Source: a virus. From it: a stretch of DNA of 43,617 bases. The notes under the pieces were generated by a model, which worked only from the letters and a program-made list of their open reading frames with translations, was not told the DNA's origin and ran no database searches. The stretch covers positions 1 through 43,617 of IMG/VR virus record IMGVR_UViG_3300037258_000560. The stretch is one strand, 5' to 3'. Below are positions 34,052-41,580 of the stretch, one piece after another. Position numbers and translations under genes: made by a program. The number at the start of each line of letters is the position of its first letter. The first letter of the stretch is position 1.

Positions 34052-34294
34052 TTACTTCTCATCGTTTTGCCCTGTGACTTTCTCTGTGGAAATGTTCCCG
34101 GGATCGCCCGCGTCTTTTCGCTCGGTGTCAGTTGTGGTGCCAGAGGGGCTCTCCTTCGGGTGGATCCAAATTTTCGTGCCGCAGCGGCAGGTGTGCTCGA
34201 CGACACCGTGGCTTGGCTCCCCTAGGAAATCCCTGAGGCAGTTCGGGCAGCGAAAGAACAAAGCAGTCTCGGACCAGCGACGGTTCCGGCTCAT
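34052..34294 (-). CDS. Small zinc-ribbon protein next to attP
   Basis: An 80-residue protein whose ATG overlaps the integrase stop by four bases (ATGA). CPNC (near residue 16) and CRCG (near residue 36) make a zinc ribbon; the remainder is polar. It is the last gene of the leftward operon, and its 3' half covers the right arm repeat of attP. It may be an accessory factor in recombination, but this is a guess from position. Confidence 0.6.
   Translation of the reverse strand: MSRNRRWSETALFFRCPNCLRDFLGEPSHGVVEHTCRCGTKIWIHPKESPSGTTTDTERKDAGDPGNISTEKVTGQNDEK
34124..34143 (+). repeat. attP arm-type repeat, right copy
   Basis: GGTGTCAGTTGTGGTGCCAG, differing from the left copy at two positions only. 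It lies inside the coding region of the small zinc-ribbon gene. Confidence 0.65.
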
Positions 34295-35343
34295 TCGGAT
34301 TTCTCCTCCAGCTCGACGGCCTCGGCCATGTGCGCCCCCGAGAGGTGAGCGTAGCGCTCAGTGGTCTTAACGTTCTTGTGGCCGAGCAGGACCTGGACCG
34401 TGCGGATCGGCCGGCCGGCCATGACCAGGCGCGACGCGAAGGTGTGGCGCAGGTCGTGGAAATGGAAATCTTCGATGCCGGCGCGCCTCACGGCTTGCTC
34501 GAACCAGTTCACGTGATCGCCTGCGCGGCGGCCCTGGCTGATCGCCAGCACTGGATCTATGGATCTCAGCGTGCGGCCGCGTTCGAGCTCGTCAATCGCC
34601 GCGAGGGCCGCTTTGTCGAGGGCGATGTGGCGCTTCCGTCCGCTCTTTGATTTCACCACGGTAAGAATTTTCCTCTCTCGATCGACGTCCCGCCACTTCA
34701 GATTGAACACTTCCCCTCTGCGCATCCCGGTGTGCATGGCGAGATCCACGATGGCCTGGTGCGTTGGCCGTCTGGCCAGCGCCTCGCGCAGCCGGAGCTC
34801 CTCGTCGGCTTCTAGGAAGCGCACCCGCTCGTTGTTTTCCTTGAGCTGTTTGACCTTGCGCGCGGGATTCACCGAAAGCTTGTCATTCTTGCCGGCCAGG
34901 TTGTAGACGCCCGAGAGCAGCGCGCGGTAGCGGTTGCGCGTTGCTGGCGAGCGATTGGGATCTGAGCCGAGGAAGCGGGTTACATCCTGCGGCGTGATGG
35001 CCTCGGCATCCTTCCCCCGGAAGGCCACGAGGAGCTGCTCCATACGCTGCAGGTTGGTCTGGTAGCTGCGCGGAGCGTGGCTGATCCGGCTCATCTCGAG
35101 GAAGTCCGCGGCGATCTCGGTGAAGGGCGTCGAGCGGCGCTTAAAGTCATCCGGGAACAGGCGCCGGCGCCGAACATCCGCGCGTCGAATCTCGACCAGG
35201 TCCTGGGCGTCCTTCAACCCTCCAACTTTTTCTCTGCGCATGCGACCCGTAGCGATGGCGTAACGTATCCAATAGATACCGCTCCCAGGCGGTCGCTCGA
35301 AGACGCCGCGCGGCAGGACGCGCTCATTTGTCCTACCGTGCAT
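34291..35343 (-). CDS. int: Tyrosine recombinase (phage integrase)
   Basis: A 350-residue site-specific recombinase. Residues 1-60 form an N-terminal arm-binding-like part, 70-160 the SAM-like core-binding domain, and 170-350 the catalytic domain. The catalytic set is complete: R208 (HTGMRRGEVFNLKW), a Lys in KSKSGRKRHI (233-239), H296 and R299 (FHDLRHTFASRL), H322 (LLGHKN) and nucleophile Y331 (TTERYAHL). It is followed by the attP region and preceded by a regulator gene that overlaps it by 11 bases. The last 37 bases also occur, inverted, at 43052-43088. Confidence 0.95.
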   Translation of the reverse strand: MHGRTNERVLPRGVFERPPGSGIYWIRYAIATGRMRREKVGGLKDAQDLVEIRRADVRRRRLFPDDFKRRSTPFTEIAADFLEMSRISHAPRSYQTNLQRMEQLLVAFRGKDAEAITPQDVTRFLGSDPNRSPATRNRYRALLSGVYNLAGKNDKLSVNPARKVKQLKENNERVRFLEADEELRLREALARRPTHQAIVDLAMHTGMRRGEVFNLKWRDVDRERKILTVVKSKSGRKRHIALDKAALAAIDELERGRTLRSIDPVLAISQGRRAGDHVNWFEQAVRRAGIEDFHFHDLRHTFASRLVMAGRPIRTVQVLLGHKNVKTTERYAHLSGAHMAEAVELEEKSE

Positions 35344-35722: not shown

Positions 35723-35837
35723 GACCGGGACTGTATTACGTGTTGCAGGTGAATTCAATTTGAATCTCTCTGTGTATTACGCGAGTAACACAAGGAGCTT
35801 GACATGGGCAATATCTCTGCACTACACTCCGCCACCG
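35723..35837. promoter_or_regulatory. Divergent control region between lysogenic and early operons
   Basis: TGTATTACG occurs twice (35732-35740 and 35773-35781), and between them lies the 13-base palindrome ATTCAATTTGAAT (35753-35765). Rightward, TTGACA (35799-35804) and TACACT (35823-35828) with an 18-base spacer form a good promoter. Leftward, the complement of 35734-35739 reads TAATAC, a good -10, close to ATG 35722. The repeats are candidates for operators. Confidence 0.6.
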
Positions 35838-35999
35838 ATGAGAAACAAAACGTTCAAATCCCAAATGTTCACGATTCGCCTTACTCCAGCAGAAATGCGT
35901 GCCCTGAAAGCTGCAGCGAAACGTCGGGGAGAAAAGCCGCGCCAAATGGTCTACGGGCTTTTGCTCCGGGAGATCGGCCGAATGCGAGTGGCCGCGTGA
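35838..35999 (+). CDS. Small ribbon-helix-helix-like protein (Cro position)
   Basis: A 53-residue protein: FKSQMFTIRLTPAEMRALKA, then EKPRQMVYGLLLREIGRMR, a strand-helix-helix pattern of CopG/Arc type. It is the first gene of the rightward early operon, ten bases beyond the -10, so it would be translated from an almost leaderless mRNA. The position is that of a Cro-like regulator. Confidence 0.6.
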   Translation: MRNKTFKSQMFTIRLTPAEMRALKAAAKRRGEKPRQMVYGLLLREIGRMRVAA

Positions 36000-36259
36000 G
36001 TGAGAAGCGGGAGAAGCGGGAGAAGCGCACCAACCCCGTTCCTGTAGGCGAGCGACTGATGCTCACGCCGCAGTTCGCAGCCGACCTGCTTTCGATTTCC
36101 AGGCGCAAGTTAGGGGAACTGCTGGCCGCGGGCATCTTGCACGGCCAGAAGGTCGGCGGCTCTAGGATGTTCTCGAGATCCGAACTTGAGAAGTTTGCCG
36201 CCGGAGAAGTGGCCGCAGCGGTGTCAGTCTCAAACGATCGTCGCAAGAAAAAGCAGTAA
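35996..36259 (+). CDS. Helix-turn-helix protein, excisionase-like
   Basis: An 87-residue protein from GTG 35996, overlapping the previous stop by four bases. After a basic leader come LTPQFAADLLSISRRKLGEL, then LAAGILHGQKVGGSRMFSRS and ELEKF, a MerR/excisionase-type winged helix. It may direct excision or regulate early genes. Confidence 0.65.
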   Translation: MSEKREKREKRTNPVPVGERLMLTPQFAADLLSISRRKLGELLAAGILHGQKVGGSRMFSRSELEKFAAGEVAAAVSVSNDRRKKKQ

Positions 36260-36285: not shown

Positions 36286-36567
36286 ATGCTCGAAACCAAA
36301 GACGAGCGTATGCAGCTGCGTCTGACTGCGGAGATGGCGAAGAGGATCAGAGCCTTGGCTGAGATTCACAACCGGCCTTTCCAGGATCAGATTCGCCACC
36401 TGCTGATGATCGGGCTCGAGAGCCCCGGCAGCAAGGAAAGCCTCGTCAAGCCTCGTCGTGCCGCGTCACACCCCGTCACGGATGGTCAGCTCCCCCTCCC
36501 CGCCCCTCCGTCAAGTGCGGTCACTTTTGGTCACGCGCCGTCACGCGGGAAGCGAGGTGCGGCGTGA
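36286..36567 (+). CDS. Arc-like ribbon-helix-helix protein with repeat-bearing 3' end
   Basis: A 93-residue protein. Residues 8-46 (RMQLRLTAEMAKRIRALAEI, HNRPFQDQIRHLLMIGLES) form an Arc/MetJ-type DNA-binding fold. The last 43 residues are low-complexity, and the DNA encoding them holds nine GTC-centred decamers in helical phase. A protein that binds repeats next to or inside its own gene is known for RHH partition and copy-control factors; that it binds these repeats is inference. Confidence 0.6.
   Translation: MLETKDERMQLRLTAEMAKRIRALAEIHNRPFQDQIRHLLMIGLESPGSKESLVKPRRAASHPVTDGQLPLPAPPSSAVTFGHAPSRGKRGAA
36441..36549 (+). repeat. Nine phased GTCA-type decamers
   Basis: GTC occurs at 36445, 36455, 36465, 36475 and 36485, then at 36510, 36520, 36530 and 36540, exactly ten bases apart within each group. 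The consensus is about ccncGTCACg; five of the nine read GTCAC. The period of ten is not a multiple of three, so the repeats are not a by-product of a repeated peptide. Confidence 0.75.
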
Positions 36568-36857
36568 GAGAGCTGCTTTTGACGGGCAGAACCTGCTGCC
36601 CGAATCACGCTTTCCAGACGGGCGAGGGCTGGATCGATCGCGCGCAAGCGCTGCTCGATGAGTGCAAGTCGAAAAAGAAGAGCCTCTACGAAACGGTGAT
36701 GCTGGCCCACCAGACCCTCAATCTCACCGACACCGAGTGGACCGTGTTCATGCTCTACCTCGGAAACTTTTCGCTTCACCAGCGGCAAGCGAGCTTGATG
36801 CACGACCTAGTCGACGGGCTGCGAGCCCCGATCTCGGTGGACGGAAAAACGCACTGA
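36564..36857 (+). CDS. Small protein of early operon, unknown
   Basis: A 97-residue protein from GTG 36564, overlapping the previous stop by four bases. Two Cys near the N-terminus (TCCPNH) and helical sequences (WIDRAQALLDECKSKKKSLY, TVFMLYLGNFSLHQRQASLM). No family recognised. Confidence 0.5.
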   Translation: MRELLLTGRTCCPNHAFQTGEGWIDRAQALLDECKSKKKSLYETVMLAHQTLNLTDTEWTVFMLYLGNFSLHQRQASLMHDLVDGLRAPISVDGKTH

Positions 36858-37488: not shown

Positions 37489-38790
37489 ATGGCCGAGATC
37501 TGCACACAAGCGCTCGAAATCATCGAGCGCCTCAAAAAACGCCCTGAGCGCCTCGATAAGGCCAAGGCCGAGCGAGCGCTCCGCGAGCATTTCGAAGCGC
37601 TCGGGTTAAAACCCCTCCGCGTCCGCTGGGTTGCGGACGCGGAGCAAGGCTACGCCGTGGCGAGGAGCGCGGCGAGGAGCGCGGCGTGGAGCGCGGCGGA
37701 GAGCGCGGCGGAGAGCGCGGCGTGGAGCGCGGCGGAGAGCTCGGCGGAGAGCTCGGCGTGGAGCGTGGCGAGGAGCGCGGCGAGGAGCGCGGCGTGGAGC
37801 GCGGCGGAGAGCGCGGCGTGGAGCGCGGCGGAGAGCGCGGCGTGGAGCGCGGCGGAGAGCGCGGCGGAGAGCTCGGCGTGGAGCGCGGCGAGGAGCGCGG
37901 CGTGGAGCGTGGCGTGGAGCGTGGCGAGGAGCGCGGCGAGGAGCGTGGCGGAGGGCGCGGCGGAGAGAGCGGCGGAGAGAGCGGCGTGGAGCGCGGCGGA
38001 GGGCGCGGCGAGGAGCGCGGCGAGGAGCGCGGCGGAGGGCGCGGCGAGGAGAGCGGCGAGGAGCGCGGCGGAGAGCGCGGCGGAGAGCTCGGCGAGGAGA
38101 GCGGCGAGGAGCGCGGCGGAGAGAGCGGCGTTGAGCGTGGCGAGCGTGGCGAGCGTGGCGTGGAGCGTGGCGGAGAACGCGGCGGAGAGCGTGGCGGAGA
38201 ACGCGGCGGAGAGCGTGGCGTGGATCGTGGCGAGGAGCGCGGCGATTGATAAGTACATTGGAATTTGGCTGCCGTTTGTAGACGCCCACGAGGCAGGGCT
38301 CTGGGCGTTCTGGGTTCTCAGGGATGAAGTGATTGCCGTCGCGCGGCCGGTTATACGCATCGAGAACGATCGGCTGCACTGCGACTATGCCCCGGCCGTC
38401 TCCTGGCCTGACGGGGCTCGCTATTGGTTCTGGAAGGGCGTTCAGGTGCCCCGGGAAGTGATCGAGCAGCCCGAGCTGATCACCGCCGAACGCGCACTCA
38501 CCGAGCGGAACGCGGAAATCAGGCGGGTGATGATCGAGCGCATGGGCGTGGAGCGCTTCATCGTCGAGGGCCATGCCAGGCTCGTCCACGCCCATGAAAT
38601 GGGGGAGTTGTTCTCGATCGGCGTGTTCGGCGATCCCGACGGCTGCGTGAACGCGGTCCGGGTTACCTGCTCCTCCACAGGCCGAAAGTATTTCCTGCGT
38701 GTTCCGCCTTCGATTAAACGAGCCGATGACGCCGTAGCGTGGACCTTCGGATTCGAGACGGCCAATTACCGGCCGGTGGTGGAGAGCTGA
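37489..38790 (+). CDS. DUF6745-like protein with A-x-S-A repeat tract, copy 1
   Basis: A 433-residue protein in three parts. Residues 1-58 are helical (CTQALEIIERLKKRPERLDK). Residues 59-252 hold about 49 tetrapeptides of the form A-[R/W/E]-S-A. The C-terminal 180 residues match DUF6745: AGLWAFWVLRDEVIAVARPV, NDRLHCDYAPAVSWPDGARY, WFWKGVQVP, NAEIRRVMIERMG and YFLRVPPSIKRADDAVAWTF. The tract should be a long Ala-rich helix. The function is unknown. Outside the tract it differs from copy 2 by only three bases. Confidence 0.75.
   Translation: MAEICTQALEIIERLKKRPERLDKAKAERALREHFEALGLKPLRVRWVADAEQGYAVARSAARSAAWSAAESAAESAAWSAAESSAESSAWSVARSAARSAAWSAAESAAWSAAESAAWSAAESAAESSAWSAARSAAWSVAWSVARSAARSVAEGAAERAAERAAWSAAEGAARSAARSAAEGAARRAARSAAESAAESSARRAARSAAERAALSVASVASVAWSVAENAAESVAENAAESVAWIVARSAAIDKYIGIWLPFVDAHEAGLWAFWVLRDEVIAVARPVIRIENDRLHCDYAPAVSWPDGARYWFWKGVQVPREVIEQPELITAERALTERNAEIRRVMIERMGVERFIVEGHARLVHAHEMGELFSIGVFGDPDGCVNAVRVTCSSTGRKYFLRVPPSIKRADDAVAWTFGFETANYRPVVES
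37663..38247 (+). repeat. 12-bp minisatellite, copy 1 (about 49 units)
   Basis: Units such as GCGAGGAGCGCG, GCGTGGAGCGCG and GCGGAGAGCGCG, all in frame except for two 9-base units (ASV ASV). The second codon switches between AGG, TGG and GAG. All six frames stay open across the tract, producing large false reading frames on both strands. Confidence 0.9.
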
Positions 38791-38811: not shown

Positions 38812-40023
38812 ATGGCCGAGATCTGCACACAAGCGCTCGAAATCATCGAGCGCCTCAAAAAACGCCCTGAGCACCTCGATAAGGCCAAGGCCGAGCGAGC
38901 GCTCCGCGAGCATTTCGAAGCGCTCGGGTTAAAACCCCTCCGCGTCCGCTGGGTTGCGGACGCGGAGCAAGGCTACGCCGTGGCGAGGAGCGCGGCGGAG
39001 AGAGCGGCGAGGAGCGCGGCGGAGAGCGCGGCGTGGAGAGCGGCGTTGATCGTGGCGAGGAGCGCGGCGTTCAGCGCGGCGAGGAGCGCGGCGTGGAGCG
39101 TGGCGTGGAACCTGGCGAGGAGCGCGGCGAGGAGCGCGGCGTGGAGCGTGGCGGAGATAGCGGCGGAGAGAGCGGCGAGGAGCGCGGCGTGGAGCGCGGC
39201 GGAGAGAGCGGCGGAGAGAGCGGCGTGGAACGTGGCGACGGGCGCGGCGTGGAACGTGGCGTGGAGCGCGGCGGAGAGAGCGGCGAGGAGCGCGGTGTGG
39301 AGCGCGGCGTGGAACGTGGCGTGGAGCGCGGCGGGGAGCGCGGCGGAGAGCGCGGCGGAGAGCGCGGCGTGGATCGTGGCGAGGAGCGTGGCGTGGAACG
39401 TGGCGTGGAGCGCTGCGAGGAGCGCGGCGGAGAGCGCGGCGAGGAGCGCGGCGAGGAGCGTGGCGGAGAGCGCGGCGATTGATATATACATTGGAATTTG
39501 GCTGCCGTTTGTAGACGCCCACGAGGCAGGGCTCTGGGCGTTCTGGGTTCTCAGGGATGAAGTGATTGCCGTCGCGCGGCCGGTTATACGCATCGAGAAC
39601 GATCGGCTGCACTGCGACTATGCCCCGGCCGTCTCCTGGCCTGACGGGGCTCGCTATTGGTTCTGGAAGGGCGTTCAGGTGCCCCGGGAAGTGATCGAGC
39701 AGCCCGAGCTGATCACCGCCGAACGCGCACTCACCGAGCGGAACGCGGAAATCAGGCGGGTGATGATCGAGCGCATGGGCGTGGAGCGCTTCATCGTCGA
39801 GGGCCATGCCAGGCTCGTCCACGCCCATGAAATGGGGGAGTTGTTCTCGATCGGCGTGTTCGGCGATCCCGACGGCTGCGTGAACGCGGTCCGGGTTACC
39901 TGCTCCTCCACAGGCCGAAAGTATTTCCTGCGTGTTCCGCCTTCGATTAAACGAGCCGATGACGCCGTAGCGTGGACCTTCGGATTCGAGACGGCCAATT
40001 ACCGGCCGGTGGTGGAGAGCTGA
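38812..40023 (+). CDS. DUF6745-like protein with A-x-S-A repeat tract, copy 2
   Basis: A 403-residue paralogue of the preceding gene. The N-terminal part differs from copy 1 at one base (CGC to CAC, R to H, at 38873), and the DUF6745 part only by AAG to ATA (K to I) at 39484-39486, directly after the tract. The tract has about 41 units in a different order, with rarer residues (L, F, T, G, N, I) at the variable positions. The stop overlaps the next ATG by one base. Confidence 0.75.
   Translation: MAEICTQALEIIERLKKRPEHLDKAKAERALREHFEALGLKPLRVRWVADAEQGYAVARSAAERAARSAAESAAWRAALIVARSAAFSAARSAAWSVAWNLARSAARSAAWSVAEIAAERAARSAAWSAAERAAERAAWNVATGAAWNVAWSAAERAARSAVWSAAWNVAWSAAGSAAESAAESAAWIVARSVAWNVAWSAARSAAESAARSAARSVAESAAIDIYIGIWLPFVDAHEAGLWAFWVLRDEVIAVARPVIRIENDRLHCDYAPAVSWPDGARYWFWKGVQVPREVIEQPELITAERALTERNAEIRRVMIERMGVERFIVEGHARLVHAHEMGELFSIGVFGDPDGCVNAVRVTCSSTGRKYFLRVPPSIKRADDAVAWTFGFETANYRPVVES
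38986..39477 (+). repeat. 12-bp minisatellite, copy 2 (about 41 units)
   Basis: The same A-x-S-A coding units as copy 1, but with a different order and more variants such as AWNV, ALIV, AFSA and ATGA. The order of units cannot be aligned simply to copy 1 at either end. Confidence 0.9.
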
Positions 40024-40349
40024 TGAGCGCGGCGGTACAGGCGGGGCTTTTCGATCAGCCGGCGCCGGAGTTTGCGCGGGCGCGGCGAACCGATCCGAAG
40101 ACCAGCAAAGCGGCGGCGCGAACTGTTCCAGTGGTGGATCTCGAAGCGCGCGTGCTCGCGGCGCTGCGATCGAACGGGGGAATGACCACGCGCGAGCTCG
40201 CGGCCCTGCTGAATGTCGAGCTGGTTTCGGTGTCTCCGCGGATGCGTCCGCTGGTTGAGAAGGGTTTGGTGGTCGATTCCGGCGAGCGCCGATCGGGACC
40301 GGGCCGAAGGTCGAAAGCAATTGTGTGGCGGGCGCGAGGTGCCGCGTGA
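40023..40349 (+). CDS. Winged-helix DNA-binding protein
   Basis: A 108-residue protein. FARARRTDPKTSKAAAR leads to RVLAALRSNGGMTTRELAAL and VELVSVSPRMRPLVEKGLVV, a MarR-like winged helix common in phage early regions. ATG 40023 overlaps the stop of copy 2. Probably a regulator or replication accessory. Confidence 0.7.
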   Translation: MSAAVQAGLFDQPAPEFARARRTDPKTSKAAARTVPVVDLEARVLAALRSNGGMTTRELAALLNVELVSVSPRMRPLVEKGLVVDSGERRSGPGRRSKAIVWRARGAA

Positions 40350-40447
40350 ATTTGCCGCTGATCATCGCGAAGATTCTGGCGACCACGATCACGCTGGTGA
40401 TGGTTTCGGTCGCGGTTTACGAATTCCTGAAAGGGCTAAGCGAATGA
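40346..40447 (+). CDS. Very small membrane protein
   Basis: A 33-residue frame from GTG 40346 (overlapping the previous stop) to TGA 40445-40447, which itself overlaps the initiator ATG. One hydrophobic helix spans about residues 3-24 (LPLIIAKILATTITLVMVSV). The double coupling supports translation. Confidence 0.5.
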   Translation: MNLPLIIAKILATTITLVMVSVAVYEFLKGLSE

Positions 40448-41580
40448 GGAGCGGGAACACGGGGCTGTACTCGGGGCTTTTCACGGAAGAGCATCGCGCG
40501 CGGATGGGCGAGGCGGTCTGGCTTTTTGGGTGGCTGGTCGACCGGCAGACGCGCTCGAACGGGCTGGTGCTGGGCGGCGCGCCAGTGACCTACGAGGACA
40601 TCGAGCGCGACCGCGGATTTCCGGTGCGGCGGCTGCGGCGATGGATGGCGCGGCTGGTCACCGAAGGCTACGTCGAGCTCGCCTACCTCAACGGAAAAAA
40701 GCTGCGCATCCGGGTGTGCAATCCGAAGAAATTCGATGGCCTGCAGCGCTCGCTTCCAATGAAGGAATCTCGACCAAAAATGGACGGTCAGACCGTCCAA
40801 AAACGGTCGATCACCCCTAGTTCTAGTCCGTCCACTTTTGGTTCGGACGTGACCAAAAATGGACGGTCCAAGCAGAGTAGAAAAGAGAGTAAGAGTAAAC
40901 CATCCTCAAGCATTAGAGATTTTCTTCCGAGCGTTGCACCGAGCCAGCCCGCGACCGAGCACCTGAACCTCTGTGTAAGAACCTGGCAAAAGTTTCGGGA
41001 GATGCGCAATGCGATCGGGAAGCCGCTGACCGAGCAGGGAGCGGATTCGATCCTGGAGAGGCTCGCGCTGTTCCAGACCCAGGGGCATTCACCCGAAGAG
41101 ATATTGCAGGAATCGATTCGCAAAAATTATCCGGATGTGTACGCGCCGAGGAGCGAGAAGCATGAGCAATCACAGCAGAGTTTCAAAGAGCGAGAATTTA
41201 GCCGCAGCCGAGAAAACATCGCGCGAGCGCTTTTCAGTGGTTTTGGGAGTGTGGCTGACCCGCTTCGCGGAGCACTATCTGCAGCCGGTGACGAAGACCT
41301 CGGCCGACTGCTACCGGGAAATTCTGGGGCATCTTTCGCCCGGGCAGATCGATCGGGCGTGCCGCCGGGCGATGGAGACGCAAGATTTTATTCCGAAGGC
41401 AGCCACGATTTTGCGGATCCACGAGGAGTTCGAGGACGCGTGGTCGACGCCGTCGACGTTTGCGAAGTACGACGAGACGCCGATGAGCGAGAGCGATCGC
41501 GAGGCGATCAAGGCGGAGCTGGCGGGAGTGGCGAAGAAACTGAGCATTGTGCCCGGCGCGAAGCCGTCGCGGCCGGTTGA
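40444..41580 (+). CDS. Replication initiator, lambda O-like
   Basis: A 378-residue frame. Residues 1-100 (FTEEHRARMGEAVWLFGWLV, APVTYEDIERDRGFPVRRLR, RWMARLVTEGYVELAYL) form a winged-helix domain of the phage initiator type. Residues 105-160 are a low-complexity linker, and the DNA for it holds the iteron cluster. Residues 165-240 form a helical domain ending near KNYPDVYAPRSEKHEQSQQ. Beyond 41162 the frame overlaps the next gene for 419 bases, and the sequence there no longer looks like protein. The true end may be earlier or may reflect a lost stop. It would bind the origin and recruit the host helicase through a loader. Confidence 0.75.
   Translation: MRSGNTGLYSGLFTEEHRARMGEAVWLFGWLVDRQTRSNGLVLGGAPVTYEDIERDRGFPVRRLRRWMARLVTEGYVELAYLNGKKLRIRVCNPKKFDGLQRSLPMKESRPKMDGQTVQKRSITPSSSPSTFGSDVTKNGRSKQSRKESKSKPSSSIRDFLPSVAPSQPATEHLNLCVRTWQKFREMRNAIGKPLTEQGADSILERLALFQTQGHSPEEILQESIRKNYPDVYAPRSEKHEQSQQSFKEREFSRSRENIARALFSGFGSVADPLRGALSAAGDEDLGRLLPGNSGASFARADRSGVPPGDGDARFYSEGSHDFADPRGVRGRVVDAVDVCEVRRDADERERSRGDQGGAGGSGEETEHCARREAVAAG
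40772..40868 (+). repeat. Replication origin iterons inside the initiator gene
   Basis: GACCAAAAATGGACGGTC occurs at 40772-40789 and, identical over all 18 bases, at 40851-40868. An inverted copy with one mismatch lies at 40828-40842, and the dyad GACCGTCCAAAAACGGTC at 40791-40808 is a related fourth element. An A+G-rich stretch (40870-40922) follows at once, matching the lambda plan of four 18-bp iterons and an adjacent easily melted region within gene O. Confidence 0.8.

Follow-up and report, generated by a model that had tools for sequence, protein, structure and literature searches.

The distal part of a small gene in the early operon of a temperate phage carries nine GTC-type cores at one-turn steps, a pattern that is well supported, judging from the DNA sequence, as a row of predicted protein-binding sites at the DNA level and not as codon repetition. 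The array lies in a 93-aa ribbon-helix-helix (RHH)-like gene (36286..36567, + strand) of the window, by which we mean the whole 43,617-base stretch of a virus record with portal, capsid, tape-measure and terminase genes. Our preferred but tentative reading (probability roughly 0.4) is a cooperative, gene-embedded protein-binding array that would be read by the RHH-like protein of the same gene and act in cis on the early operon. Gene-embedded iteron-like arrays are a kind already known; what is unusual here is the host gene.

All nine cores are on the + strand and form two groups. Group 1 (36445..36488) holds five cores at 10-bp steps (GTCA at 36445, GTCG at 36455, then GTCA at 36465, 36475 and 36485), and group 2 (36510..36543) holds four at the same step, all GTCA (36510, 36520, 36530 and 36540). 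A C-rich spacer (36489..36509, +) separates the groups and sets them 25 bp apart, core to core; its lag-5 identity is 0.73, with other lags in the same C-rich stretch at 0.54–0.71. The first-pass annotation had described nine GTCA decamers in exact 10-bp phase within the low-complexity end of the gene. The phasing of five plus four units and the location both hold, the array encoding the low-complexity tail of the 93-aa protein, but one core is GTCG, leaving eight GTCA, and GTCAC is present in only five of nine, so that the proposed unit ccncGTCACg fits a minority. A single helix face, also proposed, applies within each group but not between them, because the 25-bp step is about half a turn off. 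The cores are separated by unrelated sequences, with mean pairwise identities of 0.39 and 0.33, which rules out tandem duplication as the origin of the array. A fixed core with unrelated spacers is the mark of binding sites, and for this reason we predict them here. The suggested search for further arrays found none: neither strand of the window has another series of at least three GTCA spaced 10 or 11 bp apart. Function as an RNA hairpin was rejected (fold z 0.74).

Phasing of the cores exceeds both chance and synonymous codon choice. When 4-mers were counted at periods 8–12 within 115 bp, with two Ala-rich repeat genes masked, the window contained seven GTCA same-phase run members against a maximum of four in 200 Markov shuffles. 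For the 3-mer GTC, nine phased members were observed against at most seven in 200 shuffles. Synonymous recoding of the same protein (100,000 versions) left no phased members in 97,375 cases and reached at most seven, compared with nine observed; coordinates also place three cores in each of the three reading frames. The earlier judgment that codon repetition does not explain the units is thereby upheld. Bacterial DNA supplied a further background. Runs of at least three GTCA at 10 or 11 bp were absent from 78 bacterial loci with integrase relatives (1.12 Mb), a set for which one of three seeds, the first RHH-like ORF, was read out of frame (35837). The four-unit GTCA pattern occurred in 6 of 396 bacterial genomes, at 13 places, eight of which are one exact tandem repeat.

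The array-bearing gene is part of an early operon that runs rightward from a sigma-70-like promoter, TTGACA-18-TACACT (35799..35828, +; one found, 0.5 expected), the likely operon start by its sequence. The same scan found no promoter at the array. Following the promoter are a 53-aa second RHH-like gene (35838..35999, +; NikA-like E 0.011 and RHH_1 E 0.09, below the cut-off), an HTH_17 (excisionase-like) gene between the two RHH-like genes (35999..36259, +; Pfam HTH_17 E 1.6e-9), the 93-aa gene, and a 97-aa gene with no assigned family (36564..36857, +), whose start overlaps the stop of the RHH-like gene and for which no homologues were found. An O-like initiator gene lies further on. Two neighboring genes, 37489-38790 and 38812-40023, contain long 12-bp repeats encoding Ala/Ser/Arg/Glu-rich stretches and match the same PHROG families (phrog_8332 and phrog_31813).

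Assignment of the 93-aa protein to the RHH class is weak: it comes from residue pattern and from profile matches below the cut-off and not significant (ParD_like E 0.031, CopG_antitoxin E 0.076, Arc-like phrog_582 E 0.076). The DNA-binding part is likely to be residues 1–48. PDB sequence-search matches to the protein included no RHH protein, and its single-sequence fold was of poor quality. Homologues were absent from viral contigs, phages and genome contigs, and from 396 genomes in the phylum to which a bacterium with a related integrase belongs; a nucleotide search returned no relatives among phages.

An RHH reader is conceivable because there are RHH proteins that read rows of similar form. 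ParR, the RHH protein of type II partition loci, reads 10-bp repeats (PMC5016525), and omega, the RHH ParB of pSM19035, reads contiguous WATCACW heptads with a TCAC core (PMC9499535). The window array resembles ParR/parC in its 10-bp repeats and candidate RHH reader (PMC5016525); the likeness is one of spacing, and the window repeats occupy the 3' end of a gene instead of surrounding a promoter. An actin-like ATPase, the ParMRC partner, was not among the families listed for 43 ORFs (best 25 of 26 families) and for 10 plus 10 more, partly overlapping ORFs. With omega the array shares a TCAC-core row and a candidate RHH reader (PMC9499535). The omega sites, however, are contiguous 7-bp heptads of mixed orientation in promoter regions, whereas the window units advance by 10 bp, in one orientation, inside a gene.

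In the mechanism we infer, which covers reader, stacking and role alike, DNA encoding a presumably dispensable protein tail would double as a cooperative protein-binding array. Its reader would be the RHH-like protein from the first half of the same gene. Identical protomers would occupy the GTCA(C) cores at one-turn steps, stacked along one face in each group, and the two groups, half a turn apart, would give a two-part nucleoprotein complex. Such a complex would have the early operon as its target in cis, serving in omega- or ParR-like control or segregation, or as a roadblock.

Arrays of the same form were found in other viruses. IMG/VR viral contigs returned at least 120 matches to GTCA x4 at 10 bp, at least 120 to GTCAC x4 at 10 bp and 106 to GTCAC x4 at 11 bp; the reversed-core control CACTG x4 at 10 bp returned 22, the specificity controls being this one reversed core and the two periods. 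Distinct arrays, thinned by exact identity so that near relatives remain in the counts, had unrelated spacers in 54 of 93 cases at period 10 (among the matches listed), 47 of 100 at period 11 and 2 of 22 for the control, a set made up almost entirely of exact tandem copies. With a same-strand ORF of at least 180 aa over the array serving as a proxy for an initiator, such ORFs held 64 of 93 arrays at period 10 (among the matches listed) and 49 of 100 at period 11, and, for spacer-diverse arrays, 42 of 54 (again among the matches listed) and 28 of 47, respectively. PHROG scans of 78 and 72 array-bearing ORFs gave replication initiation protein, replisome organizer, DnaD-like helicase loader and primosomal protein as top families, together with some unnamed ones. 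Escherichia phage Evi and Pseudomonas phage P7869 each carry two GTCAC arrays in a gene annotated primosomal protein I. Literature searches among open papers returned no description of phased GTCAC arrays in phages, which is no proof of novelty. A different style is seen in four other loci (L054, L309, L115 and L313), where GTCNN recurs at a 5-bp period with variable last bases, unlike the 10-bp arrays.

The initiator-type genes have a recurrent layout. Regions ahead of the array fell into one homology group in 84 of 94 cases by phmmer and 86 of 94 with profiles, an upper view given that single linkage may chain. A model of one of these initiators (L027) has a confident N-terminal domain at about residues 15–105 (pLDDT mostly >90) and a poorly ordered linker at the array. 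VIA-align placed it with winged-helix rows (CRP 4n9i, Z 8.4, rmsd 2.1 over 70 residues; also MarR, LexA and Lrp types), and the winged-helix reading rests on these rows, VIA-align itself noting that Z <8 is common. Foldseek gave no match to the initiator model at E 0.001; the C-terminal part of the initiator matches DnaT (9zbt, E 4.4e-5). In spacer-diverse arrays of initiator-type ORFs, the base after GTCAC is mostly G or A, for a consensus of YGTCACR. First cores are spread over the three frames (10, 11 and 11 of 32 at period 10, among the matches listed; 11, 6 and 10 of 27 at period 11), indicating selection on DNA in those phage arrays too. Tandem repeats of 5–7 bp, AGAGA and CAGATA among them, are found in the 50 bp after the arrays. 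Mean lag-5 identity in 43 period-10 genes (among the matches listed) is 0.43 after the array, 0.27 before it and 0.25 farther away, and mean lag-6 identity in 43 period-11 genes is 0.39, 0.31 and 0.29, respectively; these genes were thinned by their first 30–40 residues, so that near relatives remain. The order of domain, iterons and short repeats looks like an origin with an unwinding element. Loci such as L027, L038, L111, L241 and L345 have one-turn GTCAC arrays in initiator genes, in many cases with 5- to 7-bp tandem repeats behind them, likely an origin layout shared by many phages. Seven other initiator genes examined (Rac ydaU and others) have no GTCAC array, which is thus not universal. 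Cyanophage Cy-LDV1 (L360) and Microcystis phage Mwe-JY25 (L362) encode relatives of a GTCAC-type initiator without GTCAC arrays; in Cy-LDV1 the motif repeated every 10 bp is AACG, so a different domain may go with a different core.

The window array shares core and spacing with these phage GTCAC arrays, a kinship of form, yet it is an outlier of the class. Like them it has unrelated spacers and at least four GTCAC-type cores at exact 10- or 11-bp steps, group 2 alone supplying four GTCA; the stricter GTCAC x4 pattern would miss it. Instead of a replication-initiator gene, its host is the 93-aa RHH-like ORF. Short tandem repeats do not follow it, lag identities in the 50 bp after the array being 0.35 or less. 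The N-terminal-domain profiles of array-bearing ORFs matched no window ORF at E 0.01, in a window that may be a fragment, and a GTCAC-type initiator encoded in the window was rejected on this result. The exact architecture of two units, a 25-bp step and three units was found at eight loci; the seven examined are mostly pentamer repeats, none in an RHH gene. Two-group arrays were found in 63 stretches, and none of the 31 spacer-diverse arrays examined lies in an RHH gene.

Lambda O offers an analogy for the phage class: the natural reader there would be the protein whose domain is encoded ahead of the array, and many phage initiator genes probably carry their own sites in this way. The same-gene protein is the most likely reader of the window array because a DNA-binding domain followed by an array-encoded linker is the layout of many phage initiator genes; in phages, most arrays with this core and spacing come immediately after the coding region of a DNA-binding domain. 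Against the same-gene reader stand the low significance of its RHH matches (E 0.03–0.08), the lack of a GTCA array at the operon promoter, the expected binding place of an autoregulator, and the lack of a second array-bearing RHH gene among the 31 spacer-diverse two-group arrays.

The window also encodes an O-like (DnaD-like) replication initiator (40444..41580, +), identified by PHROG profiles and tblastn. Its longer frame, 40213-41580, matches phrog_7498 (E 3.3e-12) and phrog_678 (E 3.8e-12), and tblastn with the initiator found matches in Rac YdaU and Geobacillus phage genes. In lambda-like phages, iterons lie inside the replication gene and the ori is within gene O. Iterons within the gene are also a feature of 40444-41580, which contains four copies of an 18-bp iteron (40772..40868; 40772 −, 40791 +, 40826 + and 40851 −) with the consensus GACCGTCCAYTTTTGGTC, followed by a purine-rich short-repeat tract (40869..40905, +; AGCAG AGTAG AAAAG AGAGT AAGAG). 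Iterons leading into a short-repeat tract are the same plan as in the GTCAC-array initiator genes of other phages, and the phage's replication origin more likely lies at 40772-40905. In contrast to a lambda-like ori in gene O, the window array lies outside the initiator gene, has 10-bp units with a 4–5-bp core, and lacks a short-repeat tract after it. The earlier suggestion of a second origin survives in part: the same core and spacing recur in phage initiator genes, but the phage's own initiator has different iterons and the array has no such tract.

A close rival to the same-gene reader is that the array forms a second, accessory cluster of sites for this O-like initiator, working with the iterons in its gene 4.3 kb away; we regard this as possible, though doubtful. 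It is supported by a matrix built from the four O-gene iterons only, whose best match outside the O-like gene, GTGCGGTCACTTTTGGTC (36515..36532, +), falls inside the array at 14.7 bits, against 10.3 bits for the next best outside that gene. Shuffles of the array spacers reached 14.7 bits in 1 of 2000, in a test run after the likeness had been noticed, and chance recurrences elsewhere are also seen for other 10- to 11-mers of the array. The O iterons contain GTC/GAC cores 11 bp apart, and one-turn GTCAC arrays occur mostly in phage initiator genes. However, the likeness involves one of the nine array units, the next best array site scoring 2.3 bits; the 18-bp iterons differ from the array units; the O gene already has a complete iteron set with its short-repeat tract, the feature missing after the array; and phmmer found no likeness of the O-like protein to 113 array-bearing ORFs, whose N-terminal profiles, as above, matched no window ORF.

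Unlikely, in our view, is a different reader, whether the HTH_17 excisionase-like protein, a MarR-like winged-helix protein of the window or a host protein, with a role in excision, transcription or packaging. An integrase gene (34291-35343, −; profile scan) lies 1.1 kb from the array, and a winged-helix match (HTH_24, MarR_2) is present in the window. Among the matches listed, 31 of the 101 GTCAC arrays with diverse spacers have no large same-strand ORF over them, and several of the 20 of these 31 that were inspected are beside terminase or integrase genes, named by eye only. The absence of a promoter at the array speaks against such a reader, as does the absence of any other such array in the window, the terminase region included. 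Packaging in particular was rejected for the window array, with no array near the structural half and terminase genes among the ORFs scanned. In other contigs, spacer-diverse arrays outside initiator genes (L163, L183, L202, L204, L216 and L052) include several beside terminase-subunit or portal genes by eye and are possibly packaging sites.

More speculative still is a unifying account, to which we give little weight, wherein one-turn GTCAC arrays in coding DNA would be a shared cis-code of one winged-helix initiator family, arranged as domain, iterons and short tandem repeats. The window would then represent that code moved to another small DNA-binding gene in a phage whose own initiator uses other iterons, either as a convergent, self-embedded RHH site or as a captured origin element serving as accessory site or decoy. 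A pure decoy, mimicking the iterons of other phages' GTCAC-type initiators so as to titrate them and protect the lysogen, is highly improbable: the units partly fit the YGTCACR consensus of other phages (GTCAC in five of nine) and the phage's own initiator has other iterons, but four of nine units depart from GTCAC. Chance, or a by-product of codon use in a GC-rich tail with abundant Pro, Ser, Ala and Arg, has a negligible probability and is refuted at the level tested, since none of the 200 shuffles or 100,000 recodings reached the observed phasing and the cores use all three frames.

Should the wider pattern hold, one could read the replication origin of a large set of uncultivated phages from sequence, its signature being an initiator gene with one-turn GTCAC iterons and a short-repeat tract inside. 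Origin firing, compatibility of co-infecting phages and origin-based interference would then become directly testable. As the exception, the window array may show if such arrays are tied to the initiator in every case or can pass to another DNA-binding protein.
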